In this document: positions 6,016-61,430 of the stretch, piece after piece
How positions within the stretch are numbered: the stretch's first letter is position 1
Layout: each line of letters starts with the position of its first letter
DNA from: Prauserella marina
GTDB lineage: Bacteria > Actinomycetota > Actinomycetes > Mycobacteriales > Pseudonocardiaceae
NCBI RefSeq assembly: GCF_002240355.1
Contig: NZ_CP016353.1
Location: 2,220,501 to 2,284,500 of the forward strand
Length of the DNA stretch: 64,000 nt
Direction: 5' to 3'
Position numbers and translations under genes: made by a program
The notes under the pieces: model-generated
The model's input: only the letters and a program-made list of their open reading frames with translations
Database searches by the model: none
Told to the model about the DNA's origin: nothing

Positions 6016-7200
6016 ATGGACTTCCGGAACGACGTGCGAACCTGGCTCGCCGAGTACGCGCCACCCGGTGGCGTGGCTCAGGACGATCCGGTCGCGATGG
6101 GCAAAGCGTTCCAGGCCGCCCTGTACGACGCGGGTTTCGCGGGGATCACCTGGCCAGCCGAATACGGTGGCGCTGGACTTTCCTCGGCTGAGCAACAGAT
6201 ATTCGACGAAGAGGCTGCCTCCAGCGACCTGCCGACCGGAATCTTCCTGATCGGCCTGGGAATGTGCGGTCCGACGCTCCTCGACCTCGGCACCCACGCC
6301 CAGAAGAGCCGGTATGTGCGCCCGTTGCTGCGGGGCGAGGAAATCTGGTGCCAGCTCTTCTCCGAACCCGGCGCGGGATCCGACGTGGCGAGCCTGCAAA
6401 CCCGTGCCGAGCGGGACGGCGACGACTGGGTCGTCAGCGGCCAGAAGGTGTGGACATCCGGAGCGCAGTACGCCGACTTCGGCGCGCTACTGGCCCGCAC
6501 CGACCCCGGCGCGCCGAAACACCGTGGTATCACCATGTTCATCGTGGACATGCGGGCCGAGGGCGTCACGGTGCGGCCACTGCGCGACATGACCGGAAGA
6601 GCACCGTTCAACGAGGTGTTCTTCGACCGCGTCCGAGTCCCTGCCGACGCGGTGATCGGCGAGGTCGACGCGGGCTGGTTCGCCGCCGTGACCATGCTCG
6701 GCCACGAGCGCGTCTCCATCGGCGGATCGGTGCGCAGGCACTACGATCCGCTCACCTACGCCAATCTGCACGCGCTCGCGAGCAAACTGGGACGGGCACA
6801 CGATCCGGTGGTGAGCTCGGAACTCGTCACGCTGTACGCGAGGGAACGGGCGCTCGCGCTGTTCAACACGCGGCTCAAACAGGAAGCCGATGCCGGATCG
6901 CGGCCCGGCGCGCGGGGTTCGGTCGCCAAACTGGCCGGTGCCCAACTGCTGTGGCAGGCGGTGTCGGTGGCCGGATTGATCGCCGGTCCGCGCGCCGTCG
7001 CCTGGGAACCGGACGATGTGGACAGTGCCGAGCTGGCCGTCGCCATCAACGCGACGCCAGCGTCGAGTATCGCGGGCGGCACCAATCAGATCCAGCGCGG
7101 CATCATCGGTGAGCGCATTCTCGGACTGCCGAAGGAACCACAGGCCGACCGGGGTGTCCCGTTCCGGGAACTGCGCGTGGGAACACAGCACCAGGACTGA
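6016..7200 (+). CDS. Acyl-CoA dehydrogenase, large (alpha-like) subunit
   Basis: The 394-residue protein has the complete acyl-CoA dehydrogenase fold. The N-terminal helical part contains ITWPAEYGGAGLS, the middle beta domain contains QLFSEPGAGSDVAS and WVVSGQKVWTSG, and the C-terminal flavin-binding helices end with GGTNQIQRGIIGERILG. It would introduce a trans-2 double bond in an acyl-CoA using FAD. At the position where MCAD-type enzymes carry the catalytic Glu in a YEG motif, this protein reads AGG, so the base must come from elsewhere. It is followed 15 bp later by a shorter dehydrogenase, as in the actinobacterial heterotetrameric FadE pairs. Confidence 0.92.
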   Translation: MDFRNDVRTWLAEYAPPGGVAQDDPVAMGKAFQAALYDAGFAGITWPAEYGGAGLSSAEQQIFDEEAASSDLPTGIFLIGLGMCGPTLLDLGTHAQKSRYVRPLLRGEEIWCQLFSEPGAGSDVASLQTRAERDGDDWVVSGQKVWTSGAQYADFGALLARTDPGAPKHRGITMFIVDMRAEGVTVRPLRDMTGRAPFNEVFFDRVRVPADAVIGEVDAGWFAAVTMLGHERVSIGGSVRRHYDPLTYANLHALASKLGRAHDPVVSSELVTLYARERALALFNTRLKQEADAGSRPGARGSVAKLAGAQLLWQAVSVAGLIAGPRAVAWEPDDVDSAELAVAINATPASSIAGGTNQIQRGIIGERILGLPKEPQADRGVPFRELRVGTQHQD

Positions 7201-7215
7201 GCGGGGGAAACCGTC

Positions 7216-8280
7216 ATGCGGCTGGTACTCGACGACGAGCAACGGCAATTGCGTTCGGCCGTGCGCGACGTGATCGCCGATCACTGTCCGCCGGCGCGGG
7301 TCAGGTCGGTCATCGGCGAACAGGGCTGGGATCCGGCGCTGTGGCGGCGGCTCTGCGAACTCGGGGTGACCGGGCTGGCCGTGCCGGAGCGATTCGGCGG
7401 CGAACGCGCGGGGCCGGTCGAGCGCTGTGTGGTACTGGAGGAACTGGGCCGCTCGCTCGCTCCCGTTCCGTATCTGGCTTCCGCGTGTCTCGCCGTCGAC
7501 GCCGTACGCGCGCTCGACGACGAGAGTCTTTCGGCTGACGTACTGCCCCGGCTCGCCTCTGGTGAACTGATCGGCACCGTCGCGGTGTCCCCCGTGGACA
7601 CCGTGGAGGCGCGTGAGGACGGCGGAACCTGGACACTGCACGGCACGGCGGACTACGTCATAGCGGGGGACGTCGCGGAGTTCGTGCTCGTGTACGCGGG
7701 GGCAACGGGCTGGTTCGCCGTCACCGGCTCGCGGCAATACACGCCGCTGGACACTCTCGACCCGACGCGGCGGCTCGGCAGGCTCGAATTCGCCGGAACA
7801 CCGGCGACCAGGATCGCTTGTGCCGACCCGGAGTCCGTGCTGCGCGCGGTGACCGATGCCACCGCGATCGCGCTCGCTGCGGAATCGGTCGGCGGTATGG
7901 CCTGGGTGCTGGAGACCACTGTGGACTACGCGAAGGCCAGGGTGCAGTTCGGCAGGGCCATCGGTTCGTACCAGGCGGTGAAACACGCCTGCGCCGACAT
8001 GTACAGCACGTACGAGCAGGCGGTTTCGGTGCTGCGGTACGCGGCGTGGGCCTCGGCGGAGGCGGCGGGAGAGGCGCCGGCCGCGGCAGCGCTCGCTTCG
8101 GTCTACATCGGACCGGCCTACTTCGACGTCGCCGCGACCGGCCTGCAGTTGCACGGCGGTATCGGGTACACGTGGGAGCACGACGCGCACCTCTACTACA
8201 AACGGGCGAAGACGAACGAACTGCTGCTGGGCCCCGCCGACCGGGCCGGGAAAACCTTGGCGACCGCGCTGGGAATCTGA
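7216..8280 (+). CDS. Acyl-CoA dehydrogenase, small (beta-like) subunit
   Basis: The protein has 354 residues, shorter than classical acyl-CoA dehydrogenases. The N-terminal domain is recognisable (GVTGLAVPERFGGE) and the middle domain is reduced. The C-terminal part is typical of the second subunit of FadE pairs, with VQFGRAIGSYQAVKH and LQLHGGIGYTWEHD. In mycobacterial cholesterol side-chain degradation such adjacent pairs form alpha2-beta2 enzymes whose FAD sites lie at subunit interfaces; the tandem arrangement here suggests the same. It is the last gene of the ligase-dehydrogenase operon. Confidence 0.9.
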   Translation: MRLVLDDEQRQLRSAVRDVIADHCPPARVRSVIGEQGWDPALWRRLCELGVTGLAVPERFGGERAGPVERCVVLEELGRSLAPVPYLASACLAVDAVRALDDESLSADVLPRLASGELIGTVAVSPVDTVEAREDGGTWTLHGTADYVIAGDVAEFVLVYAGATGWFAVTGSRQYTPLDTLDPTRRLGRLEFAGTPATRIACADPESVLRAVTDATAIALAAESVGGMAWVLETTVDYAKARVQFGRAIGSYQAVKHACADMYSTYEQAVSVLRYAAWASAEAAGEAPAAAALASVYIGPAYFDVAATGLQLHGGIGYTWEHDAHLYYKRAKTNELLLGPADRAGKTLATALGI

Positions 8281-18060: not shown

Positions 18061-18142
18061 CGCGAGTCCCCCGTCCAGGGCGCCGAGATCCGCGTTCCGG
18101 GCCGCGAGATCCGCACCCCGGACGCCGAGATCCGCGTTCCGG
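18061..18142 (-). repeat. 21-bp repeat family, locus B (three units plus cap)
   Basis: Read on the minus strand there are three GCGGATCTCG-N11 units at exact 21-bp steps (boxes at 18126, 18105 and 18084), then the cap GGGGGACTCGCG (18061-18072). It starts just after the stop codon of the oxidoreductase gene and lies upstream of the cou-like operon, in opposite orientation to locus C at the other end of that operon. Confidence 0.75.
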
Positions 18143-22055: not shown

Positions 22056-22101
22056 TTCACGTCGGTGGCTCGGCCCCGGCGGGGTCCTCCGGCGGCCGAA
22101 T

Positions 22102-22218
22102 GCGCATCTCGGCGGCCTGGATGCGGACCTCGCGTTTCTGAGTGCGGATCTCGCGTTCCCGAACGCGGATCTCGGCGGGCTGGACGGGGGACTCGCGCTC
22201 CTGGGCGGGGGACTCGCA
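22102..22218 (+). repeat. 21-bp repeat family, locus C
   Basis: Boxes at 22102, 22123, 22144, 22165 (GCGGATCTCG or close variants) are followed by two GGGGGACTCG caps at 22186 and 22207; every step is exactly 21 bp. It fills the gap between the convergent ligase and MDMPI genes and points in the opposite direction to locus B. Confidence 0.8.
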
Positions 22219-50712: not shown

Positions 50713-51429
50713 TCAGGGCGTCGCGAACAGCCTGCTGTCGTGACGGCCGCGCACGCCAGGCGCGACGAGTCCGGCCGCGTCCCACAACCCGGCGGGGGAA
50801 CTGGCGACGACAGGCAGCCCGTACCGGTGTTCCAGCGACGGGATGACGCCGAGCGTGTCCAGTCCTCCACAGGACAACAGCACCGCGTCGGCGGAAGGAG
50901 CGGCGGTGAGCAGGCTCGCGGTGAGCGTGCCCAGCCGTTCGGCGCCGACACCGGAGAGCGCGTCGATCCGCGTGATCGCGAGTTCCTCGCGAGCGAGTAC
51001 CCGGAAGCCCTCACCGGTCAGGAACGCGGCAAGGCGGGTGGCGACCTCACCGGTGTAGGCGGAACCGACCGCGATGTCGCGCGCGCCGAGGAGTCTCAGC
51101 GCGCGCACGACGGCGGCGGCCATCGTCGAGACGGGCAGTCCTCCGGTGAGTGAATCCAGCCTGCGCAGCACATCGGCGTGCCCTGCCTCGCCCCGGTAGA
51201 ACGACAGTGACGTGCCCATGAGCGACACCGCGCTCGCGCCGGCGCGCAGCAGACCCTCCACGGCGTCGTCGAGGTTGCCGAGCGCGCGATCGTAATCGTG
51301 CGGTGCCATGTCGACGAGACCGAGACCGCGCGCGACGAACCGGGGCGAATGCGGGTAGAGCACGGCCGCGTCGGCAGGCACTTTTCCCGCGGCGGGCGGG
51401 ACGACGAGGCCGACGGTGGGGACGCTCAT
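50713..51429 (-). CDS. Arylmalonate-decarboxylase-like enzyme (Asp/Glu racemase superfamily)
   Basis: The 238-residue protein resembles Bordetella arylmalonate decarboxylase closely along its whole length. VGLVVPPAAGKVPADA starts the protein, SLMGTSLSFYRG (G72, T73, S74) forms the oxyanion-binding loop, Y125 sits in SAYTGEV, the single catalytic Cys is C187 (LLSCGGLDTLG), and SSPAGLWDA ends the core. Racemases and maleate isomerases have two cysteines; here the first position is Gly, as in the decarboxylase. It would decarboxylate 2-substituted malonates by an enolate route. The natural substrate of this family is, to my knowledge, not settled. The ATG overlaps the stop of the IclR gene. Confidence 0.88.
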   Translation of the reverse strand: MSVPTVGLVVPPAAGKVPADAAVLYPHSPRFVARGLGLVDMAPHDYDRALGNLDDAVEGLLRAGASAVSLMGTSLSFYRGEAGHADVLRRLDSLTGGLPVSTMAAAVVRALRLLGARDIAVGSAYTGEVATRLAAFLTGEGFRVLAREELAITRIDALSGVGAERLGTLTASLLTAAPSADAVLLSCGGLDTLGVIPSLEHRYGLPVVASSPAGLWDAAGLVAPGVRGRHDSRLFATP

Positions 51430-52175
51430 GGCGCCGCGTCGTCCGGCAGCGGCGCGCACAGTCTCGCCACGGTGTCGCGGACGAGTTCGCCGAGTGTGGG
51501 AATCTGGTCGTCCGGCAGGCGATGTGCCGGTACCGCGAGGCTGATGGCCGCTCGCGCCCTGCCGTCGGAGTCGATGATGGCCGCCGCGACACCGCGGATG
51601 TCGTCGCGCCACTCCCCGGTGTTGGCCGAGTAACCGCGTTCCCTGATCGCGCGCAGCTCGTCGCGCAGCGCGGTCTCGTCGACGATGGTGCGCTCGGTGA
51701 ATCCCTCAAGGGTCTCGGAGAAGAGCGCGGTGAGTTCTTCGGGAGGGCTCCACGCGAGGATCGCCTTGCCGGTCGAGCTGGCGTGAATGGGTGCCACGAC
51801 GCCGAGCGGGTCGTGCGGGCGGACGCTCTTGCTGCTCTCCAGTTTCTCGATGATGGTGACCCCGCGTCCACTGTGGACGGAAAGGTGCACGTTCTCGTCG
51901 GTCAGGTCGGACAACTGCCGCATCACCGGCATCGCGCGTTCCCTGAGCCCGACGCCACCGCCCCTGCTCGCGAGCGCCAGTAGCTTGGTCGTCTGGACCC
52001 AGCGGCGGGAGCCGCCGAGTTCCTGTTCGACCCAGCCGACCTCGTGCAGCGCCCCGAGCGCGCGCTGAACCGTACTTTTGGGCAGGTCGAGCAGGCGGGC
52101 GAGCTCACTCACGCCGATCGGCTGGTGAGCGGCGACCGTCTCCAGAACCTGGAATGCCGTCGTGATTACTCGCAT
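51426..52175 (-). CDS. IclR-family transcriptional regulator
   Basis: The protein has 249 residues. The winged helix (about 5-60: TTAFQVLETVAAHQPIGVSELARLLDLPKSTVQRAL) is followed by the IclR effector domain, with DENVHLSVHSGRGVTIIEKLES, HASSTGKAILAW and GYSANTGEWRDDIRGVAA. The ATG at 52175 gives the standard N-terminus; another ATG at 52205 would add ten residues. It forms an operon with the decarboxylase-like gene (ATGA overlap) and is divergent from the ABC transporter operon. Four alternating half-sites lie between them. Confidence 0.93.
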   Translation of the reverse strand: MRVITTAFQVLETVAAHQPIGVSELARLLDLPKSTVQRALGALHEVGWVEQELGGSRRWVQTTKLLALASRGGGVGLRERAMPVMRQLSDLTDENVHLSVHSGRGVTIIEKLESSKSVRPHDPLGVVAPIHASSTGKAILAWSPPEELTALFSETLEGFTERTIVDETALRDELRAIRERGYSANTGEWRDDIRGVAAAIIDSDGRARAAISLAVPAHRLPDDQIPTLGELVRDTVARLCAPLPDDAAP

Positions 52176-52298
52176 GTTCCTTCCCGGGGGCAGAGTACTG
52201 CGCATCTCGAACCCCGGTTGACGCGCTCCGGGGTTCGCGGTGCGTGTGGCGTAACTCGGGTCAGCTTCTTGACTTCCGGCGAAACCACCCTGATGCTG

Positions 52299-52351
52299 AT
52301 CGTGCCGTATGAAGGGACAATATTCCAAATTGTGCCAGGAGACGGCACAAG
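52299..52351. promoter_or_regulatory. Four alternating half-sites in the IclR/ABC divergent promoter
   Basis: Half-sites ATCGTGCC (52299-52306), GGGACAAT (52314-52321), ATTGTGCC (52329-52336) and GGCACAAG (52344-52351) alternate in orientation. Each is separated by exactly seven bases, giving a 15-bp step. The last one abuts the GGAGG ribosome site of the ATPase gene. The array suits a dimer of dimers such as IclR. Confidence 0.7.
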
Positions 52352-52361
52352 GAGGTGTCGA

Positions 52362-53534
52362 GTGTCCGACCTGATCTTCGACGACGTGCACAAGAACTTC
52401 GGCGAGGTTCCCGCTGTCGCGGGCCTCGACCTGCGTATCGCGGCAGGCGAATCCGTGGTGCTGCTCGGCCCGAGCGGCTGCGGCAAGACCACCACGCTGC
52501 GCATGGTGGCCGGGTTCGAGCGGCCGACGAGGGGAAGTATCGCGCTGGGCGGTTCGGTCGTCGCCGACCGCGCCGTTTTCGTGCCGCCGGAACACCGGGA
52601 CGTCGGCGTCGTGTTCCAGAGTTACGCGCTGTGGCCGCATCTCACGGTTGCCGACAACATCGGCTTCGGCCTCACCGTCCGCAGGCGCAAGGCCAGTGGT
52701 GCCCGCAAAGGGCTGGCCGCGCGCGTGGCGGCGACGCTGGAACAGGTCCAGCTCGACGGGCTCGGCGAGCGGTATCCGCACGAACTCTCCGGCGGTCAGC
52801 AGCAACGGGTGGCGCTGGCCCGCGCATTGATCACCGACCCCAAGGTGCTGCTCCTCGACGAACCACTGTCCAATCTGGACACCAGGTTGCGGGAGGACAT
52901 GCGGCTGGAGATCCGCCGCATACAACGAGAATTCGACATCACGATGATCTACATCACCCACGATCGCATCGAGGCGCTCGCTTTGGCCGACCGCATCGTG
53001 GGGCTCAAACAGGGGAACGTACAACAGATTGGCTCACCGGCCGAGCTGTACCAGCGGCCCCGCAACCGGTTCGTCGCGCTGTCACTGGGACAGGCCAACT
53101 TCCTGCCGGCCGTGGTGACGTCCTCGCACGGCGGTACGGACGCGCGGGTCCGGCTCGGCTCCGGTGAACCGGTCGCCGTGCGCGGCACCGAGGCGCCGCT
53201 GCCCGAAGGCGAGGACGTCACCGTGTGCGTGCGGCCGGTCGATCTGACGCTGACCGAGCTGGACCGTCAGGAAGGACCATGGACGGGAACCGTGCGCGAA
53301 TCGGTGTTCCTCGGCGACGAGGTGCACTACGTAGTCGACATTCCCGCTCTGGCCGAACCGCTGCGCGTCGTCGAACGCGCCCACCGGCCACTGGCCCACG
53401 GAACCGCCGTGTCGTTCGCCGTCGCTCCACTCGCCGCCAGCGTGCTCGACGAGACCGGAACCCCCGCTACGAACACCGATGCTCTCGCCGCCACGGCGGC
53501 GCCGCGTCCCGATTCCGCGGTCAGCTCCCGCTGA
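52362..53534 (+). CDS. ABC transporter ATPase (FbpC/PotA-like)
   Basis: The 390-residue protein has Walker A GPSGCGKTT (36-44), Q-loop VVFQSYALWPH, signature LSGGQQQRVAL, Walker B VLLLDEPLSNLD and a C-terminal TOBE domain (from about 270). After the H-loop His, relatives usually have Asp-Gln (THDQxEA); here it reads THDRIEA. GTG at 52362 follows GGAGG with a six-base gap. First gene of the transporter-enzyme operon. The nearest families import iron(III), polyamines or 2-aminoethylphosphonate, but the neighbouring enzymes point to a carboxylic acid. Confidence 0.93.
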   Translation: MSDLIFDDVHKNFGEVPAVAGLDLRIAAGESVVLLGPSGCGKTTTLRMVAGFERPTRGSIALGGSVVADRAVFVPPEHRDVGVVFQSYALWPHLTVADNIGFGLTVRRRKASGARKGLAARVAATLEQVQLDGLGERYPHELSGGQQQRVALARALITDPKVLLLDEPLSNLDTRLREDMRLEIRRIQREFDITMIYITHDRIEALALADRIVGLKQGNVQQIGSPAELYQRPRNRFVALSLGQANFLPAVVTSSHGGTDARVRLGSGEPVAVRGTEAPLPEGEDVTVCVRPVDLTLTELDRQEGPWTGTVRESVFLGDEVHYVVDIPALAEPLRVVERAHRPLAHGTAVSFAVAPLAASVLDETGTPATNTDALAATAAPRPDSAVSSR

Positions 53535-53583
53535 ACCGTTTTCCCGTTCATCGCGCCGTCAACGCCGACCGGAGATGACCATT

Positions 53584-54672
53584 GTGAACAGTCCCTTATC
53601 GCGTCCCCGCCGGGTGATGTCCCGGCCGCTGACCGCCGCGGCCACGCTGCTGACCGCGCTCACCACCGCCGCCGCGCTCGCCGCCTGTGGCCCGCCGGAC
53701 ACGAGCGGAGCCACAGACCTGCCCACGTCGGAGGAAGAACTCGTCGCCATGGCCAAGGAGGAAGGCGAGGTCGTACTCGGCGCTGGAGGTCACACCAGAG
53801 CGCAAGCCCAGTTGCTCGCCGACAAGTTCACCGAGAAGTACGGCATCAAGGTGACCTTCGTCAGGGAGAATTCCGGTGACATCGCGCAGAAGACCCAGGC
53901 GCAGCTCACCGCTGGCTCGCCGCAATTCGACGTCGTGAGTCTCAACGACGAGGCGACCCTGCGGGTGTGGGAGGAAGAGGACGTCCTCGCCGACCCGGCC
54001 ATCGCCGACCGCGACGCGATCCTCGCCCCGTTGCGCGGCGAGGAAACTCAGTCCTACCTTCCCTTCACCTGGGGTGCGCTCGGCTACTCCTACAACGAGG
54101 CCAGCGTCGATCCGGCGACCGCGCCGAAGACCTGGAAGGAACTCGCCGAACGGTCCGATACCTTCGCGGTCGCCGATCCGCGTTCCTCCGGGGCCGCGCT
54201 GACCTTCGTCGCCGCCATGGAACGCATCGACGGTGGTTTCCTGCCGGGACTCGGGGACGCCGACACCCTGGTCACCGACTCCGCGCTCGCGCTGACCCAG
54301 CTCGTGGCAACCGGTGAGGCCGACTTCGGCATCCCCGGCGTCGAGGCCGACATCGCCACCGCGCGCGAGGCGGGTGAACCTCTGACGATCGGCTACCCAG
54401 AGGGTGAGATCGGCGCGGTGCCCTCCTACGTCGGAGCGCTGGCACAGGCCCAGCACCCCGCCGCGGCGCGGCTGCTCGTGCGGTTCCAGCTCAGCGAGGA
54501 GTTCCAGGCCGCGCAGGTGGAGGCGGGCTCAAGGGCGGTCCTTTCGGGACTGCCTGAGCCGGAAGAGGCCGAGGAACTCACCGAGGACCGGCTCGTCGTC
54601 GTCGACGCCCGCGAGCTGTCGGAGCGCAAGGACGAGCTGGTGCAAGCGTTTTCCTCCGCCGTGGGGAGCTGA
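53584..54672 (+). CDS. ABC transporter substrate-binding lipoprotein
   Basis: The 362-residue protein (from GTG 53584, with GGAG nine bases upstream; ATG at 53575 is the alternative) has a basic signal sequence and a lipobox ALAAC whose Cys is residue 35. The mature part is a type-2 periplasmic-binding fold of the iron/spermidine class: EGEVVLGAGGHTRAQAQLLADKF, FTWGALGYSYNE and TWKELAERSD. None of the Tyr clusters typical of iron(III) binders is evident, so an organic anion ligand is reasonable. It is 3 bp from the permease gene. Confidence 0.9.
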   Translation: MNSPLSRPRRVMSRPLTAAATLLTALTTAAALAACGPPDTSGATDLPTSEEELVAMAKEEGEVVLGAGGHTRAQAQLLADKFTEKYGIKVTFVRENSGDIAQKTQAQLTAGSPQFDVVSLNDEATLRVWEEEDVLADPAIADRDAILAPLRGEETQSYLPFTWGALGYSYNEASVDPATAPKTWKELAERSDTFAVADPRSSGAALTFVAAMERIDGGFLPGLGDADTLVTDSALALTQLVATGEADFGIPGVEADIATAREAGEPLTIGYPEGEIGAVPSYVGALAQAQHPAAARLLVRFQLSEEFQAAQVEAGSRAVLSGLPEPEEAEELTEDRLVVVDARELSERKDELVQAFSSAVGS

Positions 54673-54675
54673 GCC

Positions 54676-56370
54676 GTGCTGACCATGTCGGAAGCGCCGC
54701 CAGTGAGGGGGAGACGGTTCACCGTCGAAAAAGGACTACCGGTGCTGTGGTGCGTCGGTGCCTTCTTCCTCGTGGCCGTCCCCGTCGGCGGGCTGGTGTG
54801 GCGCAGCCTCCAGATCGGCGACACCGGGGTGCTCGGGCTCGGCAACTACTCGGCCGCGCTCGCCGAGCCCGGCATCATCGAGGCGATCTTCAACTCGTTG
54901 TGGATCGGGCTGGCGACGACGGCGGGCGCGTTGCTGATCGCGGTACCGTTCGCGTTCTTCGTCAGTCGCACCGACATGCCGGCGAGAAAGTTCTTCCGCT
55001 CGGTGGCGGTGCTCACCTTCGCCGCACCCGGCTTCATCGCCGCGATGGGCTGGATTCTGTTGCTGGGCCCGCGTAACGGCCTGCTCAACCAGTACGTGCT
55101 GACCCCGCTCGGGCTACCGGCCTTCAACATCTTCGGCCCGCAGGGCATCGTTCTGGTGCTGTCGTTCTTCCTCTATCCGCTGATCTTCCTCCCGGTCACC
55201 GACGCGCTGGACAACATGGATTCCCGGCTGGAGGAGGCCGCGGCGTCGCTGGGCGCGGGTCGCTGGCACACGTTGCGCAGGATCGTGCTGCCGCTGATCC
55301 TGCCGCCCGTCTTCTCCGGCTCACTGCTGGTGTTCATCAGTGCCTTCGTGATCTTCGGGCCGGTCGCGCTGCTCGGCGGTCCGGTGGGTTTCCAGACCAT
55401 TCCCACGGCGATGCTGCAACTGATGTCGTTCCCGCCGCGCATCGAGTACGCGGCCGTGCTGGCGCTGCCGGTACTCGTCGTGCTCGGCGGCCTGCTCGTC
55501 TTGCAGCGCAGGCTATACGGCCGCAGGCGCTACACGACGGTCGGCGGGAAACCGGGGCAGCAGCGCAGAATCCAGCTCGGCCGCTGGCGCTGGCTCGCGT
55601 TCCTCGGCGGGTTCGCCGTCATCATGATCAGTGTCGTGCTGCCGTTCGGGGTGCTGCTGCTCACCTCGTTCCGCAAAGCCATCGGGCTGCCGTTGAGCTG
55701 GGACAACCTCGTCCTTTTCGACAACTATCGCGCGTTGTTCGATCAGCCGGAGATCATGCTTTCGTTCTGGAACAGCCTGTGGATCTCGGTGGTCGCCACG
55801 GTGGGCAGCATCGTGTTCGCCGTTCTGGCCGCCTGGCTGGTTTCCCGCGCCAGATCCCGGTTCACCGGGGTCATCCAGCCCGCGATGCTCGCGCCGCTGG
55901 CTTTTCCGGGAGCGATACTGGGTATCGCGATGATCATCGCGTTCAGCGGGCAGCCGTTCTGGATCGGCGGCACCGTCGCGATCATGCTGCTGGCCTACCT
56001 GATCAGGGTGGTGCCGCAGTCCTTCACCTACATCCACGCAGGTTTCGCGCAACTCGGCGGGGAAACCGAGGAGGCGGCGCGCAGCCTCGGTGCCTCGTGG
56101 TCGGAAACGATGCGCAGGGTCACCGTTCCGCTGTTGCGCGGCCCGATCCTGTCGGTCGCGGTACTAAACTTCGTGTTGCTGTTCCGCGAACTCGACATCT
56201 CGATCTTCCTCTACACGGGAACCAACAGCGTCGCGCCCGTCGTGCTCTACAACCTCGCCGCGGAATCGCGATTCCAGCTCATGGGGGCGCTTTCGGTCGT
56301 GGTGCTGGCCGTCAATCTCGGAATCGTGTTGCTGGCGAGGCGGTTCCTCGGCGTGAAGCTTTCGCACTGA
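54676..56370 (+). CDS. ABC transporter permease, two fused halves
   Basis: The 564-residue protein has about twelve membrane segments, with two copies of the inner-membrane EAA loop (SRLEEAAASLGAGRWHTLRRIVLP and ETEEAARSLGASWSETMRRVTVP). This is the FbpB/SfuB-type fused permease that forms the whole channel. GTG at 54676 follows GGGGAG with a good gap; an ATG three codons later is also possible. It is coupled to the binding-protein gene and followed by the two enzyme genes. Confidence 0.93.
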   Translation: MLTMSEAPPVRGRRFTVEKGLPVLWCVGAFFLVAVPVGGLVWRSLQIGDTGVLGLGNYSAALAEPGIIEAIFNSLWIGLATTAGALLIAVPFAFFVSRTDMPARKFFRSVAVLTFAAPGFIAAMGWILLLGPRNGLLNQYVLTPLGLPAFNIFGPQGIVLVLSFFLYPLIFLPVTDALDNMDSRLEEAAASLGAGRWHTLRRIVLPLILPPVFSGSLLVFISAFVIFGPVALLGGPVGFQTIPTAMLQLMSFPPRIEYAAVLALPVLVVLGGLLVLQRRLYGRRRYTTVGGKPGQQRRIQLGRWRWLAFLGGFAVIMISVVLPFGVLLLTSFRKAIGLPLSWDNLVLFDNYRALFDQPEIMLSFWNSLWISVVATVGSIVFAVLAAWLVSRARSRFTGVIQPAMLAPLAFPGAILGIAMIIAFSGQPFWIGGTVAIMLLAYLIRVVPQSFTYIHAGFAQLGGETEEAARSLGASWSETMRRVTVPLLRGPILSVAVLNFVLLFRELDISIFLYTGTNSVAPVVLYNLAAESRFQLMGALSVVVLAVNLGIVLLARRFLGVKLSH

Positions 56371-56397
56371 ACCAGCCACTGGGAAGAAAGGCATCTC

Positions 56398-57474
56398 ATG
56401 GAGATCAGCAAGGCGGAAACCTGGATCCTCCGGCTTCCGTTCGTGCGCACGAGCAGGGACTTCGACGACGCTCATCACGAACTCGCCGGGGTCACGCTGT
56501 ACACGGAGAACGGAGAGCGGGGCACCGGATTCGCCTTCACGGCGGACTTCGGTGGCGGAAGCGCGGTCAAGGCGCTGCTCGACGACGTGGTGCTGCCCCG
56601 GGTACTCGGCAGGAGCACCGCCGACACGAAGCTCATCTGGCAGGACCTCAGGCGCATCACGCACCGGATGGGACGAGGACTCAACTCCTTCGCCATCGCC
56701 GCCGTCGACATCGCGCTGTGGGACCTGCGGGCCCGGCTGCACGGGCAATCGCTGGCCGCCGAACTCGGGCAGGTACGCGACCGCGTCCCCGGATACGGCT
56801 CCGGCAAGGCGTCCCCGTTATTGCCGGTCGCCGAACTCGTCGAACTGTCCCAGGGCTACGTCGACGAGGGCTTCGGCGCGGTCAAACTCAGGGTCGGCAT
56901 GGACCCTGCCGCAGACCTCGACCGGGTCGGCGCGGTCAGGGCCGCGCTCGGCGACGAGGTCCGCATCATGTGTGACGCCAACGAAAGGCTCGACCTGCCG
57001 AGCGCGCTGTGGCTCGGCCGCAGGCTCGCCGACTACGACGTGTACTGGTTCGAGGAACCGGTGCTCAGCGACGACGTCGGCGCGCACAGGCGGCTCGCCG
57101 AGGCGCTGCCCATGGCGGTGGCCAGTGGTGAACATCTGTGCAGCGCGGGCGAGTTCACGGCGTTCGTCGACGCCGGAGCCCTCGATGTGTTGCAGCCCAA
57201 CGCGTGCATGGTCGGCGGGATCACCGAGACCATGCGGATCGGCGAGCTCGCCGCGGCGCACGGGCTCGGGTTCGCGCCGCACTTCATGACCGAATTGCAC
57301 GTCCACGTTGCCGCCGCGCTGCCATCGGCGACCTACGTCGAGCACTTTCCCTTCCTCGACGCGTTCACCACCGAACCGATCAGGGTCGAGGACGGCCACG
57401 TGCTCGTCCCCGACCGTCCCGGGCACGGCATCGAATTCACGGAGCGGACATGGGACACCTACCGGACGGCGTGA
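56398..57474 (+). CDS. Mandelate racemase/muconate lactonizing enzyme family protein
   Basis: The 358-residue enolase-superfamily protein has metal ligands D193 (MCDANER), E219 (WFEEP) and E245 (SGEHL), a base candidate K163 in VKLRVG, and H295 in APHFMTELH. These line up with mandelate racemase at a nearly constant offset. Two family positions differ: the second Lys of KxK is R165, and the Asp that pairs with the catalytic His is N268 (LQPNACMVGG). It probably dehydrates or epimerises a hydroxy acid brought in by the transporter. Start at ATG 56398. The next gene overlaps its end. Confidence 0.9.
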   Translation: MEISKAETWILRLPFVRTSRDFDDAHHELAGVTLYTENGERGTGFAFTADFGGGSAVKALLDDVVLPRVLGRSTADTKLIWQDLRRITHRMGRGLNSFAIAAVDIALWDLRARLHGQSLAAELGQVRDRVPGYGSGKASPLLPVAELVELSQGYVDEGFGAVKLRVGMDPAADLDRVGAVRAALGDEVRIMCDANERLDLPSALWLGRRLADYDVYWFEEPVLSDDVGAHRRLAEALPMAVASGEHLCSAGEFTAFVDAGALDVLQPNACMVGGITETMRIGELAAAHGLGFAPHFMTELHVHVAAALPSATYVEHFPFLDAFTTEPIRVEDGHVLVPDRPGHGIEFTERTWDTYRTA

Positions 57475-58415
57475 GCGGGCCGCACACGGTCACCGTGCTC
57501 GGCGCCGCGGGGGTCGTCGGCTCCGGCGTCGTGCACGAGCTGGCGAAAACCGGTGCCGTGCAACGGATCGTCGCCAGTGACCCCCGCACCGACCTGGCGC
57601 GCGCCCACCTCATCGACATCGCCGAATCGGCGAGGGTGGTCGGGTCCGAAGTGGACACCGAGTTCGTGCTCGCGACTCCGGGCGAACTCGGTCCCTGCGA
57701 GCTGACCGTCGTCGCCGCGTCGGTACCCGAGGTGCCCACCGGTGACAGGGCGGATTTCCTCGCGGCCAACTGGGAGTTGCTGAGCGGGCTCGTGCCCGTG
57801 CTGGAACGCTGCTGCGCCGAGGGCGGGGTGGTGTTGTTGCTGACGAATCCCGTCGACGTCATGGCCGAATGCCTGCGAAGGGCCACCTCGCTGCCGCCGG
57901 AACGCATCCTCGGGTACAGCCTCAACGACAGCGCGAGGCTGAGCATGGCGGTGGCGCGCGAACTCGGGGTGCCGGCCTCGCGGGTGAGCGCGTGGGTACT
58001 CGGCGAACACGGCGCGGGCCAGGTTCCGTTGTACGGCGGTGTTCTCGTCGACGGCGAGCCGGCCGAGCTCACGCCGGAGGCGCGTGAGCGGGTCGACGCC
58101 GACGTCAGGGGCTGGTTCGCGCGCTGGTCGGCGTTGTCGCCAGGGCGCAGCAGCGGCTGGGCGACGCCGAGCGGGGTCGCCGTGATGGTGACCGCGATGC
58201 GGGAGGGCGGTGTGCTCCCGGTTTCGGTCTTCACCGGATGCGAGGGTGCCGGTCACTACGGGCTCGCCGAATCGTTCGTCACGTTGCCCGCCGTGCTCGG
58301 CGCGGGCGGGGTGAGCCACGTGGAGCGCTGGTCCGTGCGCGAGGACGAGCGGAGCGCGCTCGCCGGCGCGGCCGAGCACGTCCGCCGCGCCGCCGACCGG
58401 CTGCTGCCGGGGTGA
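57450..58415 (+). CDS. Malate/lactate-dehydrogenase-like NAD-dependent oxidoreductase
   Basis: The 321-residue protein has the nucleotide loop GAAGVVG (18-24), R100 in the mobile-loop position (TGDRADF), LTNPVDV, the substrate-binding NDSARL (Arg 163) and the catalytic H187 in GEHGAGQVP. This is an intact LDH/MDH active site acting on 2-hydroxy/2-oxo acids. The ATG at 57450 follows GGAGCGGAC and overlaps the enolase gene by 25 bases; GTG 57471 is the alternative. It presumably oxidises the acid formed by the preceding enzyme. Confidence 0.9.
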   Translation: MGHLPDGVSGPHTVTVLGAAGVVGSGVVHELAKTGAVQRIVASDPRTDLARAHLIDIAESARVVGSEVDTEFVLATPGELGPCELTVVAASVPEVPTGDRADFLAANWELLSGLVPVLERCCAEGGVVLLLTNPVDVMAECLRRATSLPPERILGYSLNDSARLSMAVARELGVPASRVSAWVLGEHGAGQVPLYGGVLVDGEPAELTPEARERVDADVRGWFARWSALSPGRSSGWATPSGVAVMVTAMREGGVLPVSVFTGCEGAGHYGLAESFVTLPAVLGAGGVSHVERWSVREDERSALAGAAEHVRRAADRLLPG

Positions 58416-59137: not shown

Positions 59138-59701
59138 CTAGTTGTCGGTCAGCTTCAGGTCGAGACCACCGGTGAGACGCAGCTCGCGGACCGTGGTCTC
59201 GCCGGTGTCGAGCGTGCGCACCGTCGCGTCCGGATGCCAGCCCGCGCCCCGGAAGAAGGCCAGCGAAGCCGAATCAGACTGCACGACCCAGGTGACACCG
59301 CGTTCGGCGCCCCTGGCCGACAGCGCGGACGCGGCGGCGGCCAGCAGCCTCCCGCCATGCCCCCTGCGTCCCCAGCGGGGTTCCACCAGGAGCGTGGCGA
59401 TCAGCCCGACCGTGCCGGCATCGGAGGGTAAGGAACCGTCGGCCGCCGCGACCTCGGATTCAGGGGCGGGGCCCGCGATGCAGAACCCGACGACGAACTC
59501 GCCCTCCGTGGCGAGCAGCAGGTCGGTCCCCGGGTGTTCGACGGCTGCCGACCAGCGCTGGGTCAGCTCGTCGATGTCCAGTGTCTCGACGACTTTCTCG
59601 CCGAGCACGTCGGCGTAGGCGGTTTGCCATGTCGTCAACTGGATGCGGGCGATCTCCGCGGCGTCGTCGACAGTGGCCACGCGGACGGCGGCGGTGCTCA
59701 T
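59138..59701 (-). CDS. GNAT-family N-acetyltransferase
   Basis: The 187-residue protein has the GNAT motif A VEPRWGRRGHGGRLLAAA (R-x-x-G-x-G, acetyl-CoA pyrophosphate binding) and motif B SASLAFFRGAGW. A Pro/Ser/Ala-poor N-terminus begins directly with the fold. The acceptor is unknown. ATG at 59701 has TAGGTT exactly six bases upstream, so it is probably leaderless. It is divergent from the AlkX-like gene with 52 bp between. Confidence 0.9.
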   Translation of the reverse strand: MSTAAVRVATVDDAAEIARIQLTTWQTAYADVLGEKVVETLDIDELTQRWSAAVEHPGTDLLLATEGEFVVGFCIAGPAPESEVAAADGSLPSDAGTVGLIATLLVEPRWGRRGHGGRLLAAAASALSARGAERGVTWVVQSDSASLAFFRGAGWHPDATVRTLDTGETTVRELRLTGGLDLKLTDN

Positions 59702-59753: not shown

Positions 59754-60965
59754 GTGAGGACGATCAGTGTCGCGGTGGCCCGCCGCACCGCGTTGGCGGC
59801 TCAGGGGTTCGCCGACCAGAGGCCGAGGGGAGCGCCGACGAGGCGCCACCTTCAGCGCATGTTGTCGCGGGTCCGGCTCATCCAACTCGATTCCGTCAAC
59901 GTGGCCGTGCGCGCCCACTACGCGCCCGTGTTCGCCAGGCTCGGTGCCTACGATCCCTCGCTGATCGACGACGCGGCGTGGAAGGACACGGCGCGAAAAC
60001 CGAGGCTGCTCGTGGAGAACTGGGCGCACGAAGCGAGCCTGATACCGGTCGAGGACTGGCCGCTGCTGCATTCGGGGGCAAAGCGGCCGGGCTGGTGGCG
60101 GCACTACACCAAGGTCGTCGACGAGTCGCCCGGCCTGGTCGACGACGTGCTCGCCGTGGTCAAGGAGTTCGGGCCCATCGGGGCCGGAGCCATCGAGCGC
60201 GAGATCGTGGGTGCCTCCAAGCGGGCGCCCGGAACGTGGTGGCAGCGCTCGGATGTCAAGAACGTCTGCGAATGGCTCTTCGGCGTGGGGCGGCTGACAA
60301 CGGGCACCCGCAAGGCGTTCGAACGCTGTTACGACCTTCCCGAGCGCGTCTTGCCGCCCCAGGTACTCGCCACCCGGGTCGACGCGGAGGAAGGGGCGCG
60401 GCGGCTCGTCGCCGGATCGGCGACGGCGCTGGGCGTGGCGACCGAAACCGATCTTCGTGACTACTACCGGCTCGGACCCCAGACCACGCGGCAGGCGATC
60501 GCGGAACTCGTCGAGGCCGGTGAGCTGGAACCGGTGCGGGTACAGGGCTGGCGGCAGCAGGCGTACCGGGCGCGGGGAGCGCAGGCGCCGCGCGCCATCA
60601 CGGGAAGGGCGCTGCTGTGTCCTTTCGATCCGCTCATCTGGGAGCGGGCGCGCACCGAGCGGTTGTTCGATTTCCACTACCGCATCGAGATCTACGTGCC
60701 GGAGGCGAAACGGGTCCACGGCTACTACGTCTTCCCCTTCCTGCTCGACGGGGAACTGGTGGCGCGTGTCGATCTGAAGGCCGACCGTGCGCGAGGGGTG
60801 CTGAGGGTGCAGGGCGCGTTCCTCGAACCCGGGGCCGATCAGGCGAGGGTGGCCAGTGAGCTGGCGGGGGAGCTGCGATTGATGGCCGCCTGGCAGGAAC
60901 TCGACGGCGTCGTGGCGGGGCAGCGAGGCGATCTGGCAGCACCGTTGCGGGCGATCGTGGGCTGA
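59754..60965 (+). CDS. Winged-helix DNA glycosylase, AlkX/YcaQ family
   Basis: The 403-residue protein contains three winged-helix modules of the HTH_42 family. The catalytic loop RLIQLDSVNV carries the QxD signature of the AlkX (YcaQ) branch, rather than QxQ of AlkZ. These enzymes remove alkylated bases and unhook interstrand crosslinks. WHxH-like ENWAHEASLIP is also present, as in the family. It starts at GTG 59754 with CATGCT five bases upstream. No antibiotic cluster that would call for self-resistance is nearby. The long repeat array starts 47 bp after the stop. Confidence 0.88.
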   Translation: MRTISVAVARRTALAAQGFADQRPRGAPTRRHLQRMLSRVRLIQLDSVNVAVRAHYAPVFARLGAYDPSLIDDAAWKDTARKPRLLVENWAHEASLIPVEDWPLLHSGAKRPGWWRHYTKVVDESPGLVDDVLAVVKEFGPIGAGAIEREIVGASKRAPGTWWQRSDVKNVCEWLFGVGRLTTGTRKAFERCYDLPERVLPPQVLATRVDAEEGARRLVAGSATALGVATETDLRDYYRLGPQTTRQAIAELVEAGELEPVRVQGWRQQAYRARGAQAPRAITGRALLCPFDPLIWERARTERLFDFHYRIEIYVPEAKRVHGYYVFPFLLDGELVARVDLKADRARGVLRVQGAFLEPGADQARVASELAGELRLMAAWQELDGVVAGQRGDLAAPLRAIVG

Positions 60966-61012
60966 GCGCCACGGTTCTCGACCGCCCGGGCGCGGTTCTG
61001 GGCGGTGCGGGC

Positions 61013-61148
61013 GCGGGTCTCGCTGTTCTGGGCGCGGATCTCGCGCGCCCGGATGCGGATCTCGCCGTCCTGGTCGCGGATCTCGGCGGTGGGGGCGCGG
61101 ATCTCGCGGGTGTGAGGGCGGGACCCGCCGACGGGCGGGGGACTCGCG
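61013..61148 (+). repeat. 21-bp repeat family, locus D array 1
   Basis: Boxes at 61013, 61034, 61055, 61076, 61097 and 61118 (GCGGATCTCG or variants) each lie 21 bp apart, ended by the cap GGGGGACTCGCG (61137-61148). The last 115 bp recur with few changes in array 2, 282 bp downstream. Confidence 0.85.
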
Positions 61149-61192
61149 CATGGGTGGCGGTTCACCGACGGGGCGGGGTTTCGCGGCATGGT

Positions 61193-61430
61193 GCGGATCT
61201 CACCCACCTGAGCGCGGGTCTCGGTTCCGGTGCGGATCTCGCCTGCCTGAGTGCGGATCTCGGCAGCACAGACGTGGATCTCGGCCACCCAGACGCGCAC
61301 CTCGCTTGCGTGAGTGCGGATCTTGCGCGCCCGGATGCGGATCTCGCCGTCGTGGGCGCGGATCTCGGCGGTGGGGGCGCGGATCTCGCGGGTGTGTGGG
61401 CGGGACTCGCCGACGGGCGGGGGACTCGCG
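61193..61430 (+). repeat. 21-bp repeat family, locus D array 2
   Basis: Boxes begin at 61193, 61214, 61232, 61253, 61274, 61295, 61316, 61337, 61358, 61379 and 61400. All steps are 21 bp except one of 18, and the cap GGGGGACTCGCG is at 61419-61430. The 492-bp gap between the convergent AlkX-like and DUF4097 genes holds no other feature. Because 21 is a multiple of three, long spurious heptad-repeat frames appear here; I do not regard them as genes. Confidence 0.85.

Follow-up and report, generated by a model that had tools for sequence, protein, structure and literature searches.

The locus we describe here occupies positions 50713-58415 of the window, by which we mean the whole 64,000-nucleotide stretch of Prauserella marina DNA that was analysed. 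It is built from two divergent units. On the minus strand lie the gene for an arylmalonate decarboxylase (AMDase; 50713-51429, 238 aa) and, overlapping it by 4 bp, that for an IclR-family regulator (51426-52175; IclR_C 137.7 bits, HTH_IclR 48.5 bits). The plus strand carries an ABC transporter operon: an ATPase with a TOBE domain, recognized by family profile matches (52362-53534), a substrate-binding protein with a lipoprotein-like start (53575-54672) and a permease made as one fused two-domain protein (54676-56370). It ends in an enzyme of the mandelate racemase (MR)/MLE family, enolase superfamily (56398-57474), and, again with a 4-bp overlap, an NAD-type 2-hydroxyacid dehydrogenase of the LDH/MDH superfamily (57471-58415). 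Every gene named in the preliminary description of this DNA is present, and the residues it picked out in the decarboxylase, G72-T73-S74, Y125 and a single C187, match the translation exactly. An inverted repeat in the iclR leader (52201-52244; arms 52201-52217 and 52228-52244, 88% complementary) is a candidate operator or RNA hairpin; shuffled sequences reached it in 0 of 300 trials at arm lengths of 12 and 20, and in 1 of 300 at 16. A second, imperfect repeat directly 5' of the ABC operon (52302-52348; 20-nt arms, 75%) makes a weak operator candidate. A promoter scan returned 0 sites, against a shuffle mean of 0.4. The divergent layout and the two repeats are compatible with common control of both units by the IclR protein.

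FbpA-type ferric-binding proteins hold their iron through a pair of Tyr-Tyr ligands. The binding protein of the locus (best Protein Data Bank [PDB] match 4r72, 39.4 bits) has no such pair and the ferric ATPase model PRK11432 reaches 288.4 bits against 496, so we rejected a ferric-iron importer. The earlier label of an iron-type ABC transporter holds for the presence of the ABC genes; "iron-type" survives as a superfamily label only. The best models for the binding protein, ATPase and permease are those of a putative 2-aminoethylphosphonate system, PhnS2, PhnT2 and PhnU2, at 38.5, 333.7 and 181.7 bits against curated cut-offs of 392.75, 457.7 and 593.25. All three proteins fall short of these cut-offs. 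Among 296 genomes of the class (6 candidates scored per genome) the binding protein has no close relative, the best other sequence being 34% identical.

AMDases serve in the production of enantiopure drug acids. The enzyme at this locus scores 249.8 bits with the arylmalonate decarboxylase model NF052327, above its curated equivalog cut-off of 225, and 242 bits with PF17645 (Amdase). In alignment it is 49% identical to the AMDase of Bordetella bronchiseptica (EC 4.1.1.76; PDB 3dg9, 2vlb), with which it shares the G/T/S residues, the Tyr, the single Cys and the LMGTSLSF motif, and from which it differs in its actinobacterial host and its deep single branch in the AMDase tree. Twelve sequence features, with identical or similar residues allowed, are given for AMDases in the accessible text of PMC4996985: P14P15, T75S76, Y126, G189, L40, V43, Y48, V156, M159, G74/C188 and two motifs. 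At these positions the new enzyme is identical except for V43 to M, V156 to I and M159 to L, and a V replaces the I that starts the ILLSCGGL motif; in our judgement it carries an identical or similar residue for all 12. The three hydrophobic-pocket changes (M41, I155 and L158 in its own numbering) look conservative, and occur in 9, 5 and 1 of 80 other AMDases. We assign the gene to the AMDase family, with (R)-selective decarboxylation of aryl- or alkenylmalonates as its predicted activity.

A survey from 2016 places AMDases in Proteobacteria only, as far as its accessible text goes (PMC4996985). Our own searches found no other AMDase over the cut-off in 396 genomes of the phylum (7 candidates scored per genome) or in 249 of the family (11 per genome); P. 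marina stood alone in both. Such searches score few first-look candidates per genome (e.g. 5, 6, 7 or 11), and weak or low-ranked members can be missed. A scan of genome contigs with this AMDase alone gave 407 pattern matches and no relative; run from an alignment of two sequences, it retrieved 116 relatives, the best 80 of which supply the locus counts used here. Plasmids yielded 17 records, the top six about 41% identical and all with proteobacterial names. In the tree of sampled AMDases the P. marina sequence stands by itself on a long branch (0.99), its local placement weakly supported (0.726), and no recent transfer from any of the sampled proteobacteria is evident. This and the other support values quoted were computed on unrooted trees.

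What lies next to AMDases elsewhere? An MR-superfamily gene is found in 52 of the 80 loci and an FMN-type L-2-hydroxyacid dehydrogenase in 17, in 15 of which the dehydrogenase and MR genes share a strand, with 50 to 4592 bp between match edges (under 100 bp in three). One locus of the 80, L069, has a strong benzoylformate decarboxylase match (770.9 bits, cut-off 493). Its genes run along one strand: aldehyde dehydrogenase, benzoylformate decarboxylase, AMDase, MR, FMN dehydrogenase and FAD monooxygenase. The benzoylformate decarboxylase alone passes its equivalog cut-off there; the aldehyde dehydrogenase, FMN dehydrogenase and MR stay below theirs. The gene caller used for fetched loci was a crude, GC3-based one with approximate start sites, and it overlooked three genes of L069, those for the decarboxylase, the aldehyde dehydrogenase and the monooxygenase, as well as the LDH-type gene of another locus, L155; these came from tblastn or an all-frame list of open reading frames. 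These counts show that AMDase is recurrently linked to MR enzymes and hydroxyacid dehydrogenases. The general idea of a transporter and an MR gene adjoining AMDase was already in print in 2016 (PMC4996985). The clusters of Maimanakos et al. 2016 (TTT, TRAP and ABC types) resemble ours in joining AMDase, an MR/MLE gene and a transporter. They are, from the portions available, all proteobacterial and rely on transporters of the TTT or TRAP kind or on putative peptide/nickel ABC systems, whereas at our locus the ABC system resembles PhnS/T/U2 and is accompanied by an IclR regulator and a dehydrogenase of LDH type. Nowhere in the main text of PMC4996985, so far as that text was available, do we find the words dehydrogenase, FMN, benzoylformate or IclR.

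The dehydrogenase of the locus belongs to the LDH/MDH superfamily: Ldh_1_N (63.4 bits) and Ldh_1_C (34.6 bits, a match confined to positions 4-51 of 174) both pass their cut-offs, and the catalytic Asp, Arg and His are kept (LNDSAR, GEHG). The position that sets specificity is Gln in lactate dehydrogenase and Arg in malate dehydrogenase. In the window enzyme what we take to be this position is Glu. The Thermus LDH row of the alignment has the Gln, and 22 of 23 MDH-like rows read LPRKPGMSR in this region. The enzyme falls short of the lactate model (TIGR01771, 116.9 bits, cut-off 303.55) and the malate model (PRK06223, 138.4 bits, cut-off 283), and we give it neither name. The earlier LDH/MDH-type label is right for the superfamily, though the Glu is of neither the lactate nor the malate type.

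This dehydrogenase and its five relatives form one clade (bootstrap 99). One relative (L154) adjoins a benzoylformate-decarboxylase-like gene, below the cut-off at 465.6 against 493, with a nitrilase and an amidase; another (L225) has nothing informative around it. The remaining three (L155-L157, in genomes G210, G230 and G291) all sit with homologues of the MR and ATPase genes, the MR being of the AMDase-linked clade. Loci fetched far enough in G230 and G210 (L214 and L215) add permease, binding-protein, ATPase and IclR homologues, so that six of the seven genes recur together there, AMDase being the one absent. The G230 locus, annotated in L157 and L214, is an aromatic-ring catabolic cluster. 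Extra genes of this LDH-MR cluster, annotated mainly in G230, are ring hydroxylases, a gentisate-dioxygenase-like gene, an RraA-like gene and an aldehyde dehydrogenase, with a LigB-like gene in G210; unlike our locus, the cluster has no AMDase and its MR is of another subfamily. All three genomes come from one genus, so the linkage is probably one event. Within the genus of P. marina itself, where 11 candidates were scored per genome, the dehydrogenase search drew a blank in G001 and G002 and gave one match of 21.5 bits in G003; on plasmids it gave 105 records, at 26-33% identity among the best 12 of 105.

The two units could be unrelated neighbours, iclR-amdase acquired as one piece and the ABC-MR-LDH operon as another, divergent by accident and sharing no pathway. 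None of 12 genomes from the genus with the other six homologues encodes an AMDase that passes the cut-off, and homologues of the LDH-type enzyme, binding protein and permease are found in none of the 80 AMDase loci, all of which speaks for this account. Against it, MR enzymes and a 2-hydroxyacid dehydrogenase of another family recur with AMDase in Proteobacteria, and in L214 and L215 the ABC-LDH-MR set comes with an IclR homologue, so the window IclR may itself belong to that set. We consider accidental neighbours unlikely.

Mandelate racemase proper works with two opposed bases, the KxK motif and a His-Asp dyad. The MR-family enzyme of the locus keeps the D/E/E metal ligands and one His (PHF). 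It has K-x-R (KLR), in contrast to the K-x-K of all 30 other actinobacterial MRs in the comparison, and QPN for QPD, an Asn at what is presumably the place of the dyad Asp. With the second Lys and the Asp both gone, two-base racemization is doubtful, and we dropped the mandelate racemase label. Most AMDase-linked MRs are altered at the same and further positions. The QPN deserves little weight as a link to them because 11 of the 30 other actinobacterial MRs, which include one own-genome paralogue without QPN, have the same Asn. In the tree the window MR lies outside the AMDase-linked clade of Proteobacteria, and the MRs of L155-L157 group with that clade (bootstrap 100).

Could the operon serve acid sugars instead? 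The MR would then be a talarate/galactarate-type dehydratase, a sugar-acid product would be the substrate of the LDH-type enzyme, and the AMDase would act on a sugar-derived malonate or have drifted to a non-aromatic substrate. The best NCBIfam model of the MR is indeed L-talarate/galactarate dehydratase (NF047820, 264.8 bits), 2pp0 (L-talarate/galactarate dehydratase) and 5xd7 (3,6-anhydro-L-galactonate cycloisomerase) are among its best PDB matches, and one His without a second Lys fits one-base elimination better than racemization. The dehydratase cut-off of 500 bits is far from reached, however; no aldolase, kinase or semialdehyde dehydrogenase family is represented among the seven genes, two of the annotated neighbourhoods of LDH relatives are of aromatic type, and the AMDase keeps identical or similar pocket residues for aromatic substrates. 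An acid-sugar function seems to us unlikely.

In the classical mandelate pathway, mandelate racemase is followed by (S)-mandelate dehydrogenase and benzoylformate decarboxylase. We favour reading the locus as a two-unit catabolic system, probably under IclR control, that feeds a route of this type, with a probability of about 0.4. The ABC importer would take up an aryl- (or heteroaryl- or alkenyl-) malonate-type acid, most likely bearing a 2-hydroxyl, or a precursor of one. AMDase would strip one carboxylate by the known cofactor-free G74/C188-type mechanism, leaving an (R)-2-hydroxy acid, for example an analogue of (R)-mandelate. The MR-superfamily enzyme would act on the same carbon, most simply by inversion to (S), and the co-translated NAD-dependent LDH-type enzyme would oxidize this (S)-2-hydroxy acid, yielding a 2-oxo acid of the arylglyoxylate type. 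A benzoylformate-decarboxylase-type enzyme from elsewhere in the genome could complete the route; P. marina has one (678 bits, over the cut-off), about 3.8 Mb from the locus along the contig. The locus shares with the mandelate pathway an MR-superfamily enzyme and a 2-hydroxyacid dehydrogenase, and differs in its NAD-type rather than FMN-type dehydrogenase, its non-canonical MR residues, the AMDase added at the top and the unlinked benzoylformate decarboxylase. Those MR residues and the MR clade, that unlinked gene, the lack of LDH-type, binding-protein and permease homologues in the 80 AMDase loci and the strong benzoylformate decarboxylase match in just 1 of them are points against a mandelate-type route. 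The idea in the preliminary description, of an imported acid processed by three enzymes in sequence, fares in between. Transporters, MRs and 2-hydroxyacid dehydrogenases do accompany AMDases, and parts of the neighbourhood recur, six homologues of seven in G230 and G210; the exact neighbourhood was not found conserved in the sampled genomes.

Alpha-phenyl- and alpha-alkenyl-alpha-hydroxymalonic acids are good AMDase substrates, converted to alpha-hydroxy acids, according to the accessible part of PMC4517146. A limited literature search found no natural source of aryl-hydroxymalonates. It is highly improbable that the AMDase detoxifies or assimilates arylmalonates without a hydroxyl, to arylacetates or 2-arylpropionates, and that MR and LDH act on some other compound. 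Phenylmalonate was the substrate on which B. bronchiseptica KU1201 and Variovorax sp. HH01 were isolated (PMC4424294; PMC4996985, from the excerpts available), which offers a parallel, but according to PMC4424294 arylmalonates have not been found in nature, and the recurrent MR and hydroxyacid dehydrogenase neighbours would be left unexplained.

The physiological role of AMDases is still open, as the preliminary description had it: accessible text from 2015, 2016 and 2026 gives the natural substrate as unknown (PMC4424294, PMC4996985, PMC13096762). The P. marina locus adds an actinobacterium to a family reported from Proteobacteria alone. The gene neighbourhoods compared here suggest a mandelate-type route and 2-hydroxy-aryl acids, and they single out the LDH-type dehydrogenase and the MR-family enzyme with KxR. 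If right, this reading would answer the open question and add an NAD-linked 2-hydroxyacid dehydrogenase that is neither a lactate nor a malate dehydrogenase. More tentatively, and with the odds clearly against us, we propose that in nature AMDases turn hydroxymalonates into (R)-2-hydroxy-2-aryl (or alkenyl) acids as the first step of a mandelate-type pathway. The locus would be its actinobacterial version, in which a new NAD-dependent mandelate-type dehydrogenase of the LDH superfamily replaces the FMN enzyme of some proteobacterial loci. If true, this would explain the strict (R)-selectivity of AMDases and their MR neighbours.

The gene coordinates confirm all seven genes of the preliminary description, in the arrangement it gave them. 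On the minus strand, iclR (51426-52175) and the arylmalonate decarboxylase (AMDase) gene (50713-51429) overlap by 4 bp. Divergent from them on the plus strand run genes for an ATPase (52362-53534), a binding protein (53575-54672), a fused permease (54676-56370), a mandelate-racemase-superfamily enzyme (MR, 56398-57474) and an LDH/MDH-superfamily dehydrogenase (LDH-type, 57471-58415). The first three junctions of this unit are gaps of 40, 3 and 27 bp; the last pair of genes overlaps by 4 bp. The two units are separated by 186 bp, within which an inverted repeat lies 26 bp from the iclR start (matched by shuffles 0, 1 and 0 times per 300 at arms of 12, 16 and 20). A second, weaker repeat lies ahead of the ATPase gene, and both are candidate operators. 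The transporter had been called iron-type. It is an ABC system that looks more like PhnS/T/U2 systems than like a ferric importer, though its proteins score under the cut-offs of the PhnS/T/U2 models. Beyond the operon lie an AlkZ-like DNA glycosylase gene (59754-60965; PF06224, 202 bits) and a divergent GNAT acetyltransferase gene (59138-59701). Scattered arrays of a unit of about 21 bp occupy 18078-18142, 22090-22217, 60972-61111 and 61191-61417. Exact matches to its core, GCGGATCTCGC, number 11 over the two strands of the window, where shuffled sequence would give 0.31; they include single copies at 2057, 12271 and 25931.

The window AMDase passes the curated equivalog cut-off (249.8 bits against 225), scores 242 bits against PF17645 and is 49% identical to the Bordetella bronchiseptica enzyme over the aligned stretch. 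It also fits the 12 AMDase criteria of Maimanakos et al. (PMC4996985) by identity or by a similar residue, similarity being a matter of judgement. In that 2016 survey, every one of the 63 putative AMDases known at the time belongs to the alpha-, beta- or gammaproteobacteria. Among the actinobacteria we sampled, an AMDase over the cut-off was found in the Prauserella genome alone, both in the phylum (1 of 396 genomes) and in the family (1 of 249), and in none of 12 genomes of the genus g95. A protein search of 60 genomes, its own included, gave a best match elsewhere of 72 bits and 33% identity. A pattern scan of a collection of 84,980 species returned 116 relatives; none of the best 80, which we used, is actinobacterial by record title, and one is a Chloroflexi MAG. 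In the tree, the window enzyme forms a long single branch among these 80, and with a support of 0.99 the 81-member group stands apart from five further members of the Asp/Glu-racemase family. Its scarcity in the sampled actinobacteria and its long branch make it look like a deep, rare actinobacterial member of the family. That the host is an actinobacterium also fits its PNPase, which scores 966-1266 bits against six PDB sequences, three of them bearing the name guanosine pentaphosphate synthetase and being of actinobacterial origin, and 598 against the one that follows. The 6.99-Mb genome (2 contigs) also carries two adjacent AMDase-superfamily genes elsewhere (6567-7409 and 7453-8220 of locus L158, C1:5600000-5615000), which share 25% and 33% identity with the AMDase across some 150-160 residues; several relatives have similarly close pairs of matches.

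What keeps company with AMDase in other genomes? We searched the 80 loci by tblastn (E up to 1e-8) in flanks of at most 10 kb per side, many of them shorter. Homologues of the window MR turned up at 52 loci, of the ATPase at 14 and of IclR at four; the LDH-type enzyme, binding protein and permease had none. When the called genes were clustered, the groups found at 50, 43 and 33 loci had as representatives a TctC receptor, an MR and a regulator of the LysR family, which agrees with the 61% for MR reported in 2016 (PMC4996985). At two loci, L080 and L054, genes next to AMDase have hydantoinase/oxoprolinase-subunit-like starts, judged from the sequence starts alone.

An FMN-dependent hydroxyacid dehydrogenase occurs at 17 of the 80 loci, although these are not independent, 12 being from Pseudacidovorax, Variovorax or a close Burkholderiales record. 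This is a new observation; the words dehydrogenase, FMN and benzoylformate are absent from the main text of the 2016 survey (PMC4996985). The family oxidizes L-2-hydroxy acids (PMC10153336). By match-edge distances, dehydrogenase and MR share a strand at 15 of the 17 loci, lie within 2.5 kb at 14 and are less than 100 bp apart at L069, L078 and L094; the exceptions are L038, which has no MR, and L080, where it is 8 kb off on the opposite strand. The L042 enzyme passes the cut-off for the L-lactate dehydrogenase subfamily (433.9 bits against 376) and has lactate, glycolate and mandelate oxidases and dehydrogenases as its nearest solved structures; those of L069 and L094 fall under that cut-off. 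L069, from a Hydrogenophaga MAG, encodes on a single strand an aldehyde dehydrogenase, benzoylformate decarboxylase, AMDase, MR, FMN dehydrogenase and FAD monooxygenase, interspersed with two genes that look TctC-like from their sequence starts alone. This is the enzyme list of the mandelate pathway with AMDase added. Among the enzymes flanking AMDase there, the benzoylformate decarboxylase alone passes an equivalog cut-off (770.9 bits against 493). The arrangement occurs at one of the 80 loci, with a weaker thiamine-enzyme match at L072.

Five relatives of the LDH-type enzyme stand out: four in 394 class genomes (179, 132, 131.5 and 127 bits; the next at 98, with five candidates scored per genome) and one in 200 family genomes (169.7 bits; the next at 89.8). 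With these five the window enzyme forms a clade (bootstrap 99, tree of 30 sequences) that has LND(S/T) and GRxxxW in common and lacks LPRKPGMSR, a motif found in 22 of the 23 remaining MDH-like rows. The catalytic Asp, Arg and His are retained; at the specificity position, where LDH has Gln and MDH has Arg, the window enzyme carries Glu and its relatives vary. These residues point to a probable 2-hydroxyacid dehydrogenase.

At L154 (G247:C4:262000-278000) one of these relatives directly adjoins a thiamine-diphosphate enzyme that matches benzoylformate decarboxylases best (465.6 bits, slightly below the cut-off of 493); the 49 top PDB sequences are all so named, one of them as 'probable'. A nitrilase and an amidase are also there, giving L154 the appearance of a cluster for degrading mandelonitrile or mandelamide that includes an NAD-type dehydrogenase. 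The relative at L225 (genome G944) has no informative neighbors. In the other three (L155 in G210, L156 in G291 and L157 in G230) an MR adjoins the LDH relative, probably through one event since all belong to a single genus (3 of 12 genomes). Wider fetches from G230 and G210 (L214 and L215) hold homologues of the permease (28-29% identity), binding protein (26-27%), ATPase (44-47%) and IclR (33-34%), so that six of the seven window genes are represented together and AMDase is the sole absentee. The exact neighborhood, whose conservation the preliminary description had proposed to look for, was not found again in the genomes sampled, though parts of it recur. G291, from a shorter fetch, shows ATPase, MR and LDH, with a weak binding-protein match beside the fetched stretch. 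In G230, the one genome of the three with full annotation (L157, L214), the six-gene set demonstrably sits inside an aromatic catabolic cluster, with a gentisate-dioxygenase-like cupin, two FAD monooxygenases, an aldehyde dehydrogenase, two RraA-like proteins, an amidohydrolase and a mycothiol-dependent isomerase family protein; G210 has a LigB-like protein (L215).

The MRs tie the two sets of loci together. Those of L155-L157 group with AMDase-linked proteobacterial MRs with support of 0.999 in a tree of 88 (50 AMDase-linked plus the three) and bootstrap 100 in a tree of 48 (10 of the 50 plus the three), which also took in L087 and L112, two AMDase-locus MRs outside the clade; of the 52 matches to the L156 MR, the top 18 show 36-40% identity. 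On this grouping, the same MR type is a neighbor of AMDase in Proteobacteria and of this kind of LDH in Actinobacteria. AMDase and LDH are directly joined in the window locus, where the MR itself belongs, by the trees, to a different subfamily. Like the AMDase-linked group it has lost the second Lys, here replaced by Arg; 50 of 52 AMDase-linked MR reading frames (51 loci) have Thr or Val there, the other two Lys and Arg, and the Lys is retained in all 30 other actinobacterial MRs compared. QPN is common to the window MR and the AMDase-linked group, but also to 11 of those 30. The altered residues weaken the racemase label.

A route can be proposed. According to Lewin et al., AMDases have been shown to act well on alpha-phenyl- and alpha-alkenyl-alpha-hydroxymalonic acids, which they convert to alpha-hydroxy acids (PMC4517146). 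A hydroxymalonate would be imported and decarboxylated by AMDase to an (R)-2-hydroxy acid; the MR would process this at C2, a step we infer from context rather than residues; and the LDH-type enzyme would oxidize the 2-hydroxy acid to a 2-oxo acid. A benzoylformate decarboxylase, over its cut-off and encoded about 3.8 Mb off along the contig, unlinked to the locus, could complete the route. That the physiological role of the family is open holds good: its natural substrate was called unknown or uncovered in 2015 (PMC4424294), in 2016 (PMC4996985) and in 2026 (PMC13096762), and the open-licence PubMed Central literature searched, including that since 2017, offers no answer in its accessible parts. 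The observation behind the preliminary description stands, and its interpretation as one uptake-and-degradation locus is partly supported and now more specific. If the mandelate-type reading were proved, the interest of the locus would rise.
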